64,000 nt of DNA from Solirubrobacterales bacterium 67-14 (GTDB lineage Bacteria; Actinomycetota; Thermoleophilia; Solirubrobacterales; 70-9), in contig MKST01000002.1 of NCBI GenBank assembly GCA_001897355.1, positions 138,516 through 202,515 on the forward strand, given 5' to 3'. A program made the position numbers and the translations under genes. Positions 26,144 through 31,786 of this stretch are shown here, in pieces (the stretch's first letter is position 1; each line of letters begins with the position of its first letter). The notes beneath the pieces were generated by a model. It was given only the letters and a program-made list of their open reading frames with translations. It did not search any database and was not told the DNA's origin.

Positions 26144-26188
26144 ATGGGCGGTACTGGGCTCGAACCAGTGACCCCCTGCGTGTAAAGC
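26144..26188. repeat. attL: 45-bp direct repeat (3' half of tRNA-Val)
   Basis: ATGGGCGGTACTGGGCTCGAACCAGTGACCCCCTGCGTGTAAAGC, identical to 31713-31757. Confidence 0.95.
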
Positions 26189-26390
26189 CGTCCTGGTAGG
26201 CAGAGGATGAGTCAGAAGAGATCAGTTTCCCACCGTAGAGCCAAGTTGAGTCAGCTTGAGTCGGTTTGGCTCGGCCTGAGTTGGCCTGGGTTGGTACATC
26301 TCGCGGTACATCGGGAGCCGATCGACCGACGGGGCGTAACGGCAGGGAGCGTCGAAACCCATTCAGTCAAACCAGAAGGGCGGTTTGACC

Positions 26391-27758
26391 ATGGAAGCGA
26401 GTTCGGAGCCGAGAGGCGCGTTGGTTGTATACGAGACCAAGGGCGGGGAACCCCGCTACAGGGCCAAGTGGCGGGATCGGACCGGCAGGCAGTGCTCGCC
26501 GACCATCGGCCCCGCGTGGCTGACCAGGAAAGAAGAGCGATGGGTCCGGCGGTCGGGGCGTCCCGACTCGGGCTTCTACGACGAGCAGCGGGCCTATCTC
26601 AGGATGGCCGAGCTGATCGCCGAGCACGACGCGGCCCTGCCGCAACCGGGCGACCCGGAGTCGGTGCCCTTCGAGGAGTTGGCCGAAGCCTGGTTGGAGT
26701 TCCTCTCCCACGGTGGCCGGGCCAAGCCCTCGACCCTGCACGACTACCGGACGATGCTCGCCCACCCCGGCCCCTGCGCGCGAGGGGGCCGCGAGCGCAA
26801 GGCCCGCATCATGCGCGAGTTCGCCAGAAGGAACGCAACCGCGATCACGACCGGCGAAGTGGCGGCCTTCCTGGACCGACTCGTGGTCGAGGGCCTCAAG
26901 GCGCGGAACGTGAACCGGCACCGCCAGGCCCTTCACGCCGTCTTCGCCTTCGGCATGAGACCGGGCACCTACGGCCTGGCGAAGAACCCGGTCTCCGACA
27001 CCGAGAAGCAGCGCGAGGACGGTCCAGCAGCGATCGACGCCTTCACGACCGAGGAGCTGGCAGCGATCGAACGGGTGGCAAGGGAGGGGTCGCACCGCGC
27101 GCGCCCTAACGGTTGGTACGGCCCAGCAGTGCACGAAGAGTGGCAGCGGATGAACGACCAAGACGCGGCGATCGTCAAACTGGCCGCCTACACCGGACTC
27201 CGGCAGGGCGAGCTACGAGCGCTCAGATGGAGACATGTGTTCCTGGGCGAGCAGCGCCTGTCGGTCGAGGAGGCAATCTCAGGTGACGAGTTCTCCACCA
27301 CCAAGAGCAGAAGGGTGAGATCGGTGCCCTTGACCGAAGCCGCCTGCGACCTGATGGTCGGGCTGCGTCGCCGAGGCCGATGGCTCAGCGACGAGGATCT
27401 GCTCTTCTGCACCAACGACGGAACCCCGCTCAACGCCTCGGCGCTCCGCAGGAGGTTCAAGCAGGCTCAGCGGAAGGCCGGGGTTCGGGTGCGCCGCTTC
27501 CACGATTTACGCCACACCTTCGGCTCGATCGCGGTGCGCCGGTTCGATCCAGTGACGGTCCAGCGACTGATGGGCCACGCCAACTTGAAGACGACCGAGC
27601 GATACCTCCACAGCCGACCACGCGCCGATGATGCCACTCGACTCGCAGAGGCCTTTGCCTCAGACGTAGAGCCCAGTCCTAAACCAACCCAGCCCGGACC
27701 CACTTCGCGCAACGGTCGTACGTCGAGGTTCCGGTTGAGGGTGAAGCTCGGACCTTGA
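26391..27758 (+). CDS. int: Tyrosine-type site-specific integrase
   Basis: GLRQGELRALRW, HDLRHTFGS, MGHANLKTTERYLH (R...HxxR...H...Y). Confidence 0.95.
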   Translation: MEASSEPRGALVVYETKGGEPRYRAKWRDRTGRQCSPTIGPAWLTRKEERWVRRSGRPDSGFYDEQRAYLRMAELIAEHDAALPQPGDPESVPFEELAEAWLEFLSHGGRAKPSTLHDYRTMLAHPGPCARGGRERKARIMREFARRNATAITTGEVAAFLDRLVVEGLKARNVNRHRQALHAVFAFGMRPGTYGLAKNPVSDTEKQREDGPAAIDAFTTEELAAIERVAREGSHRARPNGWYGPAVHEEWQRMNDQDAAIVKLAAYTGLRQGELRALRWRHVFLGEQRLSVEEAISGDEFSTTKSRRVRSVPLTEAACDLMVGLRRRGRWLSDEDLLFCTNDGTPLNASALRRRFKQAQRKAGVRVRRFHDLRHTFGSIAVRRFDPVTVQRLMGHANLKTTERYLHSRPRADDATRLAEAFASDVEPSPKPTQPGPTSRNGRTSRFRLRVKLGP

Positions 27759-27762
27759 GTGA

Positions 27763-28620
27763 CTACGCGGTTGCGATCCGATCAATGAAGGCCTGAACTG
27801 TGTCAACTGCGGTCTCTACGTCGGTTGGACTCATATGCAACTCTTCGGCGAGCGCGGCATAACCTTCGCGCCAACTCGGCTGGGCGACCAGCCGAGGGGG
27901 CCACGTCTGACCGCCCCTGGCCGTGAAGACCTGCTCGCATGCTTGCCGTGCCGTCGGCAGGTCGGCCTCCAGAGCCTCCAGCAGCTGAAGATCAACGAGG
28001 TCACGGAACCTGGGGTTCTCGTAGCCATCGGGGTATTCCTCGGTGACAGCATGAAGTTTCTGGGCGATCTGCCACCGCGTATCGAGAACCAGAACCGTCT
28101 CCGGCCCGTCGAGCCCAACCGCATCAAGCGGCAAACCTGGGATGGCCGTGAACTTCTCATGGCCGGTCTCCGCGGGCGAGATCTCCAATTGTGGCGAGGA
28201 AAGAACTCGACCGGCGAATATGACTTGCACCTTGACTTTCCTGAATTCAGCCCGACGGGGAAGACTGGTGATCTCACCCCGCCTGAAAGAGAAGCCCTCG
28301 TAAGGAGCCGCCAGCCCTTCATCGAGCAAATCTGCGAGTTGGTCCGCGTCGCCGCGCAGCACCAGGTCGATGTCGTTGGTGGCCCGGGCTTGTCCCCGCA
28401 TCCTCAGCTCCATCGCGATCCCGCCTTTGGTGGCAAACGCAGCCCGGCCTTCCGGGCCGACGACCCGCGCCAATGCGCCCGCAATCATCATCGCGGCGAT
28501 CCGTAGATTCAAGCGGCTGACCGGATAGCCCGAGTCTTTCTGCCATTGGGTGATGAGCTGCTCCAGGCGAGCCTTCGTTTTCGGGCGCTTCGGACGAGCG
28601 GCTGGATCGCCGGTGTTCAT
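27763..28620 (-). CDS. abiEii: AbiEii-type nucleotidyltransferase toxin
   Basis: FATKGGIAMELRMRGQARATNDIDLVL (G-G-x-A-L / DxDL pattern), R..W..AQKLHAVTEEYPDGYENPRFRDLVDL. Confidence 0.85.
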   Translation of the reverse strand: MNTGDPAARPKRPKTKARLEQLITQWQKDSGYPVSRLNLRIAAMMIAGALARVVGPEGRAAFATKGGIAMELRMRGQARATNDIDLVLRGDADQLADLLDEGLAAPYEGFSFRRGEITSLPRRAEFRKVKVQVIFAGRVLSSPQLEISPAETGHEKFTAIPGLPLDAVGLDGPETVLVLDTRWQIAQKLHAVTEEYPDGYENPRFRDLVDLQLLEALEADLPTARQACEQVFTARGGQTWPPRLVAQPSWREGYAALAEELHMSPTDVETAVDTVQAFIDRIATA

Positions 28621-29192
28621 GCTCGCCCAGTTGGTATCCGACCCAGATCAAGGTCTTGATTCAGCCGGTCGGCAACGGCAGAACTCAGCAAGCCTTTTTC
28701 ACGGCCCCGCCGCACGGCTTGCTCGATCAGATCGAGACCGAGATGGTCGGCAGCGCATTCACGAATCGCCCGTTCCAGGGAGACGATTGGAATCCCCTCG
28801 ATCGCGGTCACCTCGGCCTCATCCAGATCCTCACGATGGATCACATAAGCCTTCGGCACTTGCCGTTGCGGTCTATGCTCCCGCGGCACCGTGACATGAA
28901 TCTTCGCGGGGTTTACGTCACTCACATCCCAGAGATCTAGCGCCGTGGCATGGCTCAAGACGCCGCGTACTCCCGCCGGCCATAGTGCCGCCTCCATATA
29001 CCCGGCAAACGGACCGGGCGGAAGGAAAGGGATTCGGTAGACCCCCTGGCTAACTCTTTCGAGCCGACCGCGCCGCGCCATCTGCGCGACGGTGTTGTCC
29101 GCATACCCGACAGCACGAGCATCTGCCAGGGTGAAAAATCCATGCTGATCAGCAGCAAGCTCAGCCAGCTCTGCGAAGCGATCGGTCGGCAT
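28617..29192 (-). CDS. abiEi: AbiEi-type antitoxin / winged-HTH regulator
   Basis: ADQHGFFTLADARAVGYADNTVAQMARRGRLERVSQGVYRIPFLPP...LSHATALDLWDVSD; ATGA overlap with abiEii. Confidence 0.85.
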   Translation of the reverse strand: MPTDRFAELAELAADQHGFFTLADARAVGYADNTVAQMARRGRLERVSQGVYRIPFLPPGPFAGYMEAALWPAGVRGVLSHATALDLWDVSDVNPAKIHVTVPREHRPQRQVPKAYVIHREDLDEAEVTAIEGIPIVSLERAIRECAADHLGLDLIEQAVRRGREKGLLSSAVADRLNQDLDLGRIPTGRA

Positions 29193-29226
29193 GCGCTCAG
29201 AATAGCGCATTTTGTCCCTTTTCAAG

Positions 29227-29239
29227 CACACATTGTGTG
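29227..29239. promoter_or_regulatory. Palindromic operator candidate upstream of abiEi
   Basis: CACACA-T-TGTGTG immediately upstream of a -35-like CTTGAA and TATTCT-N6-ATG. Confidence 0.5.
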
Positions 29240-29295
29240 AGTGGTCGAAGTCGCCACCGGTCACGAAACCGAGGATCCGCCGCTACGATGGACCG

Positions 29296-29484
29296 ATGGT
29301 GGCCAGGAAACAACCAAGCGACGCCAATCCGTTCCCGCCCCACCTTGACGTAGTGCCGCTCGATGAGGAGCCCCTGAGCCCCGAGGACGAAGCGATGATT
29401 CAAGAAGGCCGGGACGACATCAAGGCGGGCCGGACCGTGAGCCTGGAAGAGGCCGAGGCGTGGCTCCGCGAATCCCCAAAGTGA
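29296..29484 (+). CDS. Small antitoxin-like protein (62 aa)
   Basis: EDEAMIQEGRDDIKAGRTVSLEEAEAWLRESPK resembles the tail of RelB/ParD-type antitoxins; TACGAT-N6-ATG. Confidence 0.5.
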   Translation: MVARKQPSDANPFPPHLDVVPLDEEPLSPEDEAMIQEGRDDIKAGRTVSLEEAEAWLRESPK

Positions 29485-29613
29485 ACGGCGGCTCCGGGTC
29501 GGGACTGGCGGGTCATCTTCGATCGAGATCCTGAAGCCCATCTCATGACGATCTTCACGATCTCCCACGCGGCCGAGCCTACGAACGGTAGCCACGCCAT
29601 GCCACCAATCTGA
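29485..29613 (+). pseudogene. Possible RelE/ParE-like toxin remnant lacking its N-terminus
   Basis: In-frame RDWRVIFDRDPEAHLMTIFTISHAAEPTNG with no start or N-terminal half, immediately after the antitoxin-like gene. Confidence 0.35.
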
Positions 29614-29750
29614 TGGCATGGCGCGCCGCTTCACGGGAGGGGATTTGTCCCTTTCCAGACCGACTTTTCCCCAGCACCATCCCCTTCCCACACAGTATCA
29701 CCAGAACGTATGTTCGATCTAGCGATCCAAGTGGTGCTGTTTTGACCCAA

Positions 29751-29785
29751 TTGCCTTACCAGCACCATTTGTGTATAGTGGTGCC
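29751..29785 (+). promoter_or_regulatory. Leaderless promoter of the HTH/GIY-YIG operon
   Basis: TTGCCT (29751-29756)-N17-TATAGT (29774-29779)-N6-ATG (29786). Confidence 0.7.
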
Positions 29786-30424
29786 ATGAAAAGCAATCCC
29801 GAGAAATCAGCACCAGTTGCCGACGCGGTTCGCGAAGCGAGAGAGCGCGAAGGTCTCACAGTCCGCGAGCTATCCCGTCGAGCCGGCATTTCCCACACAC
29901 AGATCAGTCGACTCGAATCCGGCGAGGTGAGCAAACCCTCGCGAGAGATACTGGTCGCTCTGGGCCGAGGCCTCGATCGGAACCCGATCCCCCTGTTGAT
30001 CCTCGCCGGCTACTACGACGAAGAAGAGGCCGTTGAAGCCTTGAAACCAATGTTCAGGGAGGACGCCGAGTTGCCCGAGGCGTGGCCCGACGGGGGCGTT
30101 TGGACCGTCGACGAAGCCAACGAGTTTCTATTCGATCCAGATCTCGGCCATGACATCGAAGAACTGAAAGGGCTCGCCGCAGACGTTTTTTCGGTACCCG
30201 AAACCGACGAGACCCTTTGGGATCCTTCGTATCTACTCGCAGCTGCCCGCGGAGACGACGCTTGGCACCTCCAACGCTTCATGGCCACCTGGCGCTACCT
30301 AGATTCTGAACTCCGGGCACGGTGGCTTGACTACGGTCTCAAACTACGCAAGATCGCTGACCTCGACTACCGGGTTGACGCTGACCTCGACCGCCGGGAC
30401 AAGGCGGGGGAGCAGGATGCTTGA
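29786..30424 (+). CDS. XRE-family HTH regulator with ~140-aa uncharacterised C-terminal extension
   Basis: REREGLTVRELSRRAGISHTQISRLESGEVSKPSREILVALGRGL. Confidence 0.85.
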   Translation: MKSNPEKSAPVADAVREAREREGLTVRELSRRAGISHTQISRLESGEVSKPSREILVALGRGLDRNPIPLLILAGYYDEEEAVEALKPMFREDAELPEAWPDGGVWTVDEANEFLFDPDLGHDIEELKGLAADVFSVPETDETLWDPSYLLAAARGDDAWHLQRFMATWRYLDSELRARWLDYGLKLRKIADLDYRVDADLDRRDKAGEQDA

Positions 30425-30896
30425 GCCACGCGAAATGGGATTCGAAGGGTACGTCCCCCTTCGGGCGCTTCCACGCGGATGCCAGGAGGTGCCCCCCGAG
30501 GGTGGCGTTTATTGCGTCCTCGCAGAGAACCCCAAACCCGAGTTTGCCGACACGAGTACCGGTGGATGGTTCAAGGGGCGCAATCCCTCCGTTGACCTGA
30601 ATCAACTCGAAGCTAAGTGGGTCAATGACACGTCGACCCTCTACATCGGGAAGGCCAAGTCCCTGCGGAAACGGATCGACCAGTTCGCCAGGTTCGGCCG
30701 GGGCGAGCCGATCGGCCACTGGGGCGGTCGCTACTTGTGGCAACTGACCAACCCAGACGTTCTCCAAATCGCCTGGAAGATCGATCCGAACCCAGCACAG
30801 GCAGAGATCGACCTCATTTCAGGCTTCATCGACGTCTACGGCACTCTCCCATTCGCAAATCTGAACCGGCCCCGCAGAGCTGGGAGACCAGCGTGA
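30417..30896 (+). CDS. GIY-YIG superfamily nuclease-like protein
   Basis: GVYCVL ... LYIGKAKSLRKRIDQF ... AEIDLISGFIDVYGTLPFANLN retains GIY, YIG, R, E and N positions; overlaps the XRE stop (ATGCTTGA). Confidence 0.7.
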   Translation: MLEPREMGFEGYVPLRALPRGCQEVPPEGGVYCVLAENPKPEFADTSTGGWFKGRNPSVDLNQLEAKWVNDTSTLYIGKAKSLRKRIDQFARFGRGEPIGHWGGRYLWQLTNPDVLQIAWKIDPNPAQAEIDLISGFIDVYGTLPFANLNRPRRAGRPA

Positions 30897-31249
30897 CCCC
30901 GCAGATAGAGCTGCCGATCCAGTTCAAGGCCCATGCGGTCGAGCGGTACCGGGACCATCTGCGCCCAGCGCTTTCCGTGAAGGACGCCGAAGTTGACCTT
31001 CAAAGGATTGCTGCCCATGCTCGGGTTTGGTGGCAAGCGCCTCAATGGCTCGGCGGGTCCAGTCGCCAGGACGTCACGATGTTCCTAACCGTCGCCGATG
31101 CCGCATTCCCCTTGGCACCATCCGAGGATGGGACATGCCTCATAGCGTTGACGTGCCGGGTTCGCGGTTCGTTGAGCGCGAGCGTCAGGGAAAGTCGAAA
31201 TCGAAAACGCCGTGCCTGCCAGGACGATCGCAGATCGGTAAACCATTGA
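30893..31249 (+). CDS. Small hypothetical protein (HAVERYRDHLRP motif)
   Basis: GTGA overlap with the GIY-YIG gene; FKAHAVERYRDHLRPALSVKDAEVDLQRI. Confidence 0.65.
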   Translation: MTPQIELPIQFKAHAVERYRDHLRPALSVKDAEVDLQRIAAHARVWWQAPQWLGGSSRQDVTMFLTVADAAFPLAPSEDGTCLIALTCRVRGSLSASVRESRNRKRRACQDDRRSVNH

Positions 31250-31521
31250 CTACCTGGGGATGGATTGCCACCGCTGTTGTCGTGCTAGTAGTCGGTGGTT
31301 GGTTCAGCAGACTGCTCAGCCCTTACCCGGAGGACGACAAGTACCCGAAAGCCGGAACAATTGGTGAGAAGGCAACTCACATCGCGCTTCAACCCCTTGT
31401 TTCTGGCATCGGCTTAATGGGGTTTCTGCTGGTGGTTGCTGGTACCGCCATCCGGTTGATGGTCTGGGCCATCGGCCTTGCTTTTGCCTGGTACTTCATC
31501 TCGGAGATCTTTGGCCTCTAG
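31246..31521 (+). CDS. Small hypothetical membrane protein (2-3 TM)
   Basis: TTGA overlap with the upstream gene; WGWIATAVVVLVVGGWF and LMGFLLVVAGTAIRLMVWAIGLAFAWYFI segments; start codon uncertain. Confidence 0.55.
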   Translation: MTTWGWIATAVVVLVVGGWFSRLLSPYPEDDKYPKAGTIGEKATHIALQPLVSGIGLMGFLLVVAGTAIRLMVWAIGLAFAWYFISEIFGL

Positions 31522-31712
31522 CGTGAAGGCGTTGGCGTCCCGGGCCTCTTCGGGATAGCCGCTTGACCTTTCGCTCAGTTCATGGGATCTACCGTTGGTC
31601 GATCCCTCCGACCCGCCGCGGTACATTCAGCGGTACATCGAAAGCGCCGTGCCGCTGAGTGCGCGACCCGCGAAAGGCGCGTTCTCAGCAGCAGAGGCGA
31701 GAATCAGACTGA

Positions 31713-31757
31713 ATGGGCGGTACTGGGCTCGAACCAGTGACCCCCTGCGTGTAAAGC
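31713..31757. repeat. attR: 45-bp direct repeat within tRNA-Val
   Basis: Identical to 26144-26188. Confidence 0.95.
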
Positions 31758-31786
31758 AGGTGCTCTTCCAACTGAGCTAACCGCCC
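31714..31786 (-). tRNA. tRNA-Val(TAC), integration target
   Basis: RC GGGCGGTTAGCTCAGTTGGAAGAGCACCTGCTTTACACGCAGGGGGTCACTGGTTCGAGCCCAGTACCGCCCA. Confidence 0.95.

Follow-up and report, generated by a model that had tools for sequence, protein, structure and literature searches.

Four overlapping genes (positions 29786-31521) follow a single promoter in the window, by which we mean the whole 64-kb stretch of DNA analyzed here (Table 1). Their end-to-start overlaps (ATGCTTGA, GTGA and TTGA) and the promoter are as the original prediction had described them. The promoter, which agrees at 9 of 12 positions, is the sole sigma-70-like match in 29550-31750 (mean in shuffles, 0.3), and its -10 hexamer ends 6 bases upstream of the gene 1 ATG. 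Because this position puts the transcription start about at that ATG, the operon mRNA is probably leaderless, starting about at 29786.

Repeats lie over the promoter. A 12-nt inverted repeat (92%) consists of CAAGTGGTGCTG (29728-29739) and CAGCACCATTTG (29760-29771), the second arm being placed between the -35 and -10 hexamers. A further copy, CAGCACCAGTTG (29808-29819), is found within gene 1, and there is a half-site at 29777-29784. The heptamer AGCACCA has 16 matches in the window, four of which fall within 143 bp at the operon promoter. The repeats have the appearance expected for the operator of an XRE autorepressor, and we refer to them as operator-like, a candidate operator.

Table 1. 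Features of the tRNA-Val element and of the operon that it carries
Feature	Position	Strand	Description
Left attachment site	26144..26188	.	45-bp copy of tRNA-Val 3' part; perfect direct repeat
Tyrosine integrase	26385..27758	+	457 aa; Pfam Phage_integrase, 1.6e-28
AbiEii/AbiEi pair	27763..29264	-	PADLOC AbiEii, 5.7e-67; AbiEi, 1.9e-66
Probable small toxin-antitoxin remnant	29296..29611	+	Sequence inspection
Operator-like repeats	29728..29819	.	Over promoter
Promoter	29751..29779	+	TTGCCT-N17-TATAGT
Gene 1	29786..30424	+	212 aa; ATG at 29786
Gene 2	30417..30896	+	159 aa
Gene 3	30893..31249	+	118 aa; GTG start
Gene 4	31246..31521	+	91 aa; TTG start
Right attachment site	31713..31757	.	Inside intact tRNA-Val gene; perfect 45-bp direct repeat
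Intact tRNA-Val gene	31714..31786	-	

The tRNA-Val element and its exchanged cargo

The operon had been placed in a tRNA-Val island, and this island is delimited by the perfect 45-bp repeats. They enclose an element of 5.57 kb with an integrase, an AbiEii/AbiEi pair, a toxin-antitoxin (TA) remnant and the four-gene operon. Having both an integrase and a direct repeat of the 3' part of the tRNA, it is a tRNA-integrated mobile element. The AbiEii/AbiEi pair is defense cargo of the same element, separate from the four-gene operon. The remnant, as judged by sequence inspection, has an antitoxin-like 62-aa ORF (29296-29484) followed by a C-terminal toxin-like fragment. A Pfam search of 29296-29611 gave no match; the region is probably a decayed RelBE-like pair.

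A related element is present at the same tRNA-Val in a congener, G304. DNA identity between the two elements is 80.6% for the stretch of left end and integrase, 79% for the remnant, which the G304 element has kept (29479-29716 against L223 4676-4920), and 83% for the right end. The G304 integrase is 82% identical to that of the window over 348 aa, and its reading frame is broken beyond. The slot between the remnant and the right end contains the four-gene operon and nothing else in the window; in G304 it contains no such operon and encodes a 297-aa protein (L223:5079-5972). The N-terminal part of this protein matches the PADLOC candidate PDC-S60 (1.7e-15), the phage-defense role of which is itself a prediction.

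Inserts at the tRNA-Val(TAC) site differ across the genus (window 26144-31757; L220, L221, L222 and L223). When the joined flanks were used as a query, no clean empty site was found in the genus, and differing inserts separate the left flank from the tRNA. In another genome, G059, the attachment sequence occurs three times in a row, two of the copies flanking an AbiE pair. Elements thus integrate repeatedly at the tRNA-Val site, a hotspot in this genus, and exchange their cargo there, some of which is known or predicted defense.

The four proteins and their relatives

Gene 1 encodes an XRE/Cro-type helix-turn-helix (HTH) protein (Pfam HTH_31, 1.2e-11; HTH_3, 1.6e-11) with a long C-terminal region beyond the HTH. 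These matches, together with the operator-like repeats, agree with its earlier description as an HTH regulator with a long extension. In PADLOC 2023 it has HTH-type matches only, such as capH (4e-10). The long gene-1 type is present in 3 of 232 genomes of the order (that of the window, G011 and G333, the last two having the only full-length relatives), and a survey of 289 genomes of the class gave no further convincing case; other XRE matches in the order are mostly HTH-only. Gene 3 follows the long gene-1 type in all three genomes. The order is XRE, GIY-YIG, gene 3 and gene 4 in the window, XRE and gene 3 without GIY-YIG in G333, and, in G011, XRE and GIY-YIG in a single reading frame followed by gene 3. 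Judged by these gene orders, the recurring part is XRE plus gene 3, which a GIY-YIG domain joins in two of the three cases. In G011, gene 3 is followed after about 240 bp by a 49-bp tRNA-His fragment (96%), which suggests an old element; no integrase was found beside this fragment.

Gene 2 scores below the cut-off of the Pfam GIY-YIG profile (14.4 bits, E 0.048, cut-off 22.6). It has the motifs GVY30-32 and YIG76-78, catalytic R86 and E130, and a conserved N148, and in the family alignment 71-72 of 72 homologues retain Y32, Y76, R86, E130 and N148. The AlphaFold2 model (pLDDT 93.9) is a compact soluble single domain with a GIY-YIG fold; its top five PDB matches include three GIY-YIG proteins, 2lwf, UvrC 1yd6 and R.Eco29kI, with weak Foldseek E values (about 0.05-0.25, including 0.048 and 0.065). 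Because of the 72-sequence alignment and this confident model, and despite the sub-cut-off Pfam score, gene 2 is taken to be a real GIY-YIG protein with the predicted fold and the catalytic set intact, as had been proposed from its motifs.

A scan of 85,462 genomes found 196 relatives of gene 2, from which 80 loci were kept, and plasmids yielded 26 more. They come from Bacteroidota, Pseudomonadota, Actinomycetota, Planctomycetota, Bacillota and other phyla, and the family appears to be unnamed; we found no published activity for it among open-licence papers. In the gene-2 tree, the window and G011 copies are placed neither as sisters nor as separate, which is compatible with XRE and GIY-YIG having come together either once or twice. 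A phage origin was considered for genes 2 and 3 and rejected: neither has relatives in IMG/VR, and phage records gave one gene-2 match, in an unannotated 7.6-kb 'phage' record.

Relatives of gene 2 elsewhere include some that neighbor restriction genes. An Mrr_cat endonuclease lies on the same strand and at most 19 bp away in 8 of the 80 gene-2 loci, and nowhere else within them. A ninth such case, G142, is from the same order as the window. The Mrr_cat-linked copies occupy several separate branches of the gene-2 tree. Two-gene pairs of GIY-YIG and Mrr_cat are seen in several phyla (L074, L103, L116, L120, L124, L135, L137, L139 and L004), and we found no paper naming this pairing. Gene-2 relatives are also contained in type I restriction-modification (R-M) loci (L092, L107 and L125), and about 16 loci, chiefly of related Bacteroidota, have a WYL regulator within 470 bp. 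Four of the Bacteroidota loci (L069, L071, L072 and L073) are overlapping operons of a WYL regulator, a 155-aa membrane protein and a GIY-YIG protein that carries a 107-aa N-terminal domain of no recognised kind. The gene-2 domain is fused to RhuM (L119), to HARE-HTH (L111 and kin) and to XRE (G011). The RhuM fusion is an Arthrobacter protein (L119:2891-4465), whose RhuM part corresponds to PADLOC PDC-S05.

Short membrane proteins adjoin gene 2 in low-GC loci more often than expected from control ORFs (11 of 44 vs 8 of 108), an excess that is only suggestive, many of the loci being related. No convincing relative of gene 1 or gene 3 adjoins gene 2 in the 80 loci. The majority of homologues in GC-rich genomes look solitary, where gene calls were mechanical and apparently solitary copies may hide missed partners.

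Gene 3 encodes a small basic protein with the pattern HAxxRY...TCLxRG. In keeping with the original prediction, which recognised no family for it, there is no match of note in Pfam, NCBIfam, PADLOC or PHROG, and a PDB profile search gave no match. Its codon-usage support is weak; it is nevertheless considered a genuine gene because homologues exist. Of the 232 genomes of the order, 33 have such homologues, in varied settings; outside the order they are scarce (7 of 398 genomes of the phylum, most of the seven being from the order). The family is undescribed and nearly confined to the order. Gene 3 occurs together with a GIY-YIG gene in only two of the genomes that bear it, and many copies stand alone in the chromosome. 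The genome of the window itself has a second, solitary paralogue (G000:C11:501354-501671, L046). The closest relative, 47% identical, is in the congener G290, where it overlaps the end of a VWA-domain gene (L048:2589-4204). Some relatives have a prophage-like setting or a relaxase as neighbor (L055 and L056). The single-sequence structure model is poor (pLDDT 54), and the predicted order of elements is helix, helix, strands, helix. An assignment of gene 3 to DUF4258 or another RelE-like toxin family was not adopted, profile comparison with DUF4258 having given a probability of 15% over the N-terminal HAxxR motif only.

The gene 4 product has two hydrophobic stretches, an N-terminal one and a long C-terminal one, because of which the predicted two to three membrane segments, and its assignment as a small membrane protein, are plausible. 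No convincing relative was found in the 232 genomes of the order, among which gene 4 is an apparent orphan. The proposal that the four genes form one system did not hold up when their co-occurrence elsewhere was checked: the set is not conserved as a system, gene 4 being an orphan, and gene 3 is mostly found without a GIY-YIG gene. What recurs is the pair of XRE and gene 3.

A proposed defense cassette and its rivals

We read the operon as a cassette directed against phages or plasmids and carried as cargo by a small tRNA-Val integrative element, with a probability of roughly one half. This reading draws on the variable slot, the intact catalytic set of gene 2, the Mrr and type I R-M neighbors, the DNA-binding fusions and the operator-like repeats. 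AbiE in the window element, the swap for a PDC-S60 protein in G304, the WYL neighbors, the linkage of gene 3 to the long XRE type in three of three genomes and the published use of GIY-YIG nucleases in defense also count in its favor. The solitude of gene 2 in GC-rich genomes, the separateness of gene 3, the orphan state of gene 4, the predicted nature of the PDC-S60 role and the weak Foldseek E values count against it. The earlier suggestion of an anti-phage or addiction module stands in part: its defense-like context is borne out by the Mrr, type I R-M and WYL neighbors and by the PDC-S60 swap, and nothing specific to addiction was found.

In such a cassette, gene 1 would repress the operon, as the operator-like repeats suggest, and repression may be lifted upon infection or when the element enters a cell. 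Gene 2, given its catalytic residues and neighborhoods, might cut foreign DNA, its action being type IV-like and dependent on modification or structure. Its specificity could come from gene 1 or gene 3 as a partner, as may be surmised from their linkage and from the one fused XRE-GIY-YIG relative. Gene 3 might bind nucleic acid or gene 2, and the hydrophobicity of gene 4 is consistent with its tethering the complex to the membrane or sensing the membrane. A fuller proposal is that of a new anti-phage system with several components: the XRE autoregulator and gene 3 would direct the GIY-YIG nuclease against DNA that comes in, acting at the membrane or close to it, other branches of the family being paired with Mrr, WYL and small membrane proteins. 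We hold this only tentatively.

The four genes may instead be loose accessory cargo, independent genes that share a slot and are co-translated with no joint function, gene 2 being the sole active part. The orphan state of gene 4, the mostly separate occurrence of the gene-3 and gene-2 families and the frequent solitude of gene 2 are what one would expect of such cargo. Three strict overlaps under a single promoter are not, and neither is the gene 1-gene 3 linkage in three of three genomes with the long XRE type, nor the fusion of genes 1 and 2 in one of them; we consider loose cargo somewhat unlikely. An addiction module is also unlikely. Gene 3 or gene 2 would be its toxin, and gene 1 would act both as autorepressor and as an antitoxin of XRE type, the pair serving to retain the element. 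The helix-strand order and HAxxR motif of gene 3 recall RelE-like and DUF4258 proteins, G333 has XRE and gene 3 alone, the promoter has operator-like repeats, and the TA remnant and AbiE show that the element gathers such genes. However, gene 3 is found alone, with no XRE partner, in many genomes, which is odd for a toxin; the resemblance to DUF4258 is confined to the weak N-terminal match described above; and gene 1 exceeds the usual size of XRE antitoxins.

Finally, the operon could serve the element itself, gene 1 being the element repressor and the GIY-YIG protein and gene 3 acting in excision, transfer or homing. The operon adjoins an attachment site, GIY-YIG domains are frequent in homing enzymes, and the prophage-like and relaxase settings of some gene-3 relatives point the same way. 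The G304 element, however, has the same integrase and ends and lacks the operon, and gene 2 has no IMG/VR relatives and a single, unannotated phage record; a housekeeping role thus seems very improbable.

If gene 2 restricts phage DNA, then an unnamed multi-phylum GIY-YIG family would be a defense nuclease family with testable members and with Mrr, WYL and type I R-M as its recurring partners. At the tRNA-Val site one cargo has naturally taken the place of another between related mini-elements, and comparison of the inserts there provides a short list of further candidate defense genes in a little-studied actinobacterial order.

Comparison with known systems

No named system was known to have this set of genes, and genes 2-4 indeed have no match among the named anti-phage systems in the PADLOC profiles (the copy used being that of 2023). 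GIY-YIG serves in defense in the wH-GIY-YIG enzymes (PMC11037411), CMoRE (PMC12923530) and SNIPE (PMC13190303). The wH-GIY-YIG proteins Ahi29725I and Apa233I are type IV restriction endonucleases (PMC11037411). The operon resembles them in combining GIY-YIG with a DNA-binding HTH module and in its restriction context. In those enzymes, however, a winged helix is fused to the nuclease, whereas the operon has a separate XRE-type HTH gene, fused in G011 only, with no winged helix and no sign of 6mA reading.

CMoRE (PD-T4-3) is one protein with a C-terminal modification-sensing domain and a GIYxY motif (PMC12923530), and shares with the operon a nuclease of GIY-YIG type for which restriction of foreign DNA has been proposed. 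Its third tyrosine is missing from gene 2, which has V34 (tyrosine occurs there in 0 of 72 homologues), and so is the C-terminal sensing domain, gene 2 being a 159-aa single domain within an operon. SNIPE is a single polypeptide, TM-DUF4041-GIY-YIG (PMC13190303). A GIY-YIG nuclease with a membrane component is common to both, but DUF4041 is absent from all four operon proteins, and the anchor that SNIPE has in the nuclease polypeptide would correspond in the operon to a separate orphan membrane gene, gene 4, beside a gene 2 product modeled as soluble.

The operon is also like AbiE and type II TA modules in being small, in having a DNA-binding protein as candidate autoregulator and in residing on a mobile element; type II modules have a toxin of known family next to its antitoxin, and no toxin family was recognised in genes 2-4. 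Mrr-type loci are related through the nine in which gene-2 homologues directly adjoin Mrr_cat, and the window operon differs from them in having no Mrr gene. The operon is best read as XRE-autoregulated, type IV-like GIY-YIG restriction cargo, which would work like the wH-GIY-YIG, CMoRE and SNIPE precedents and not be one of them, the GIY-YIG domain being the one defining feature that it has in common with each.
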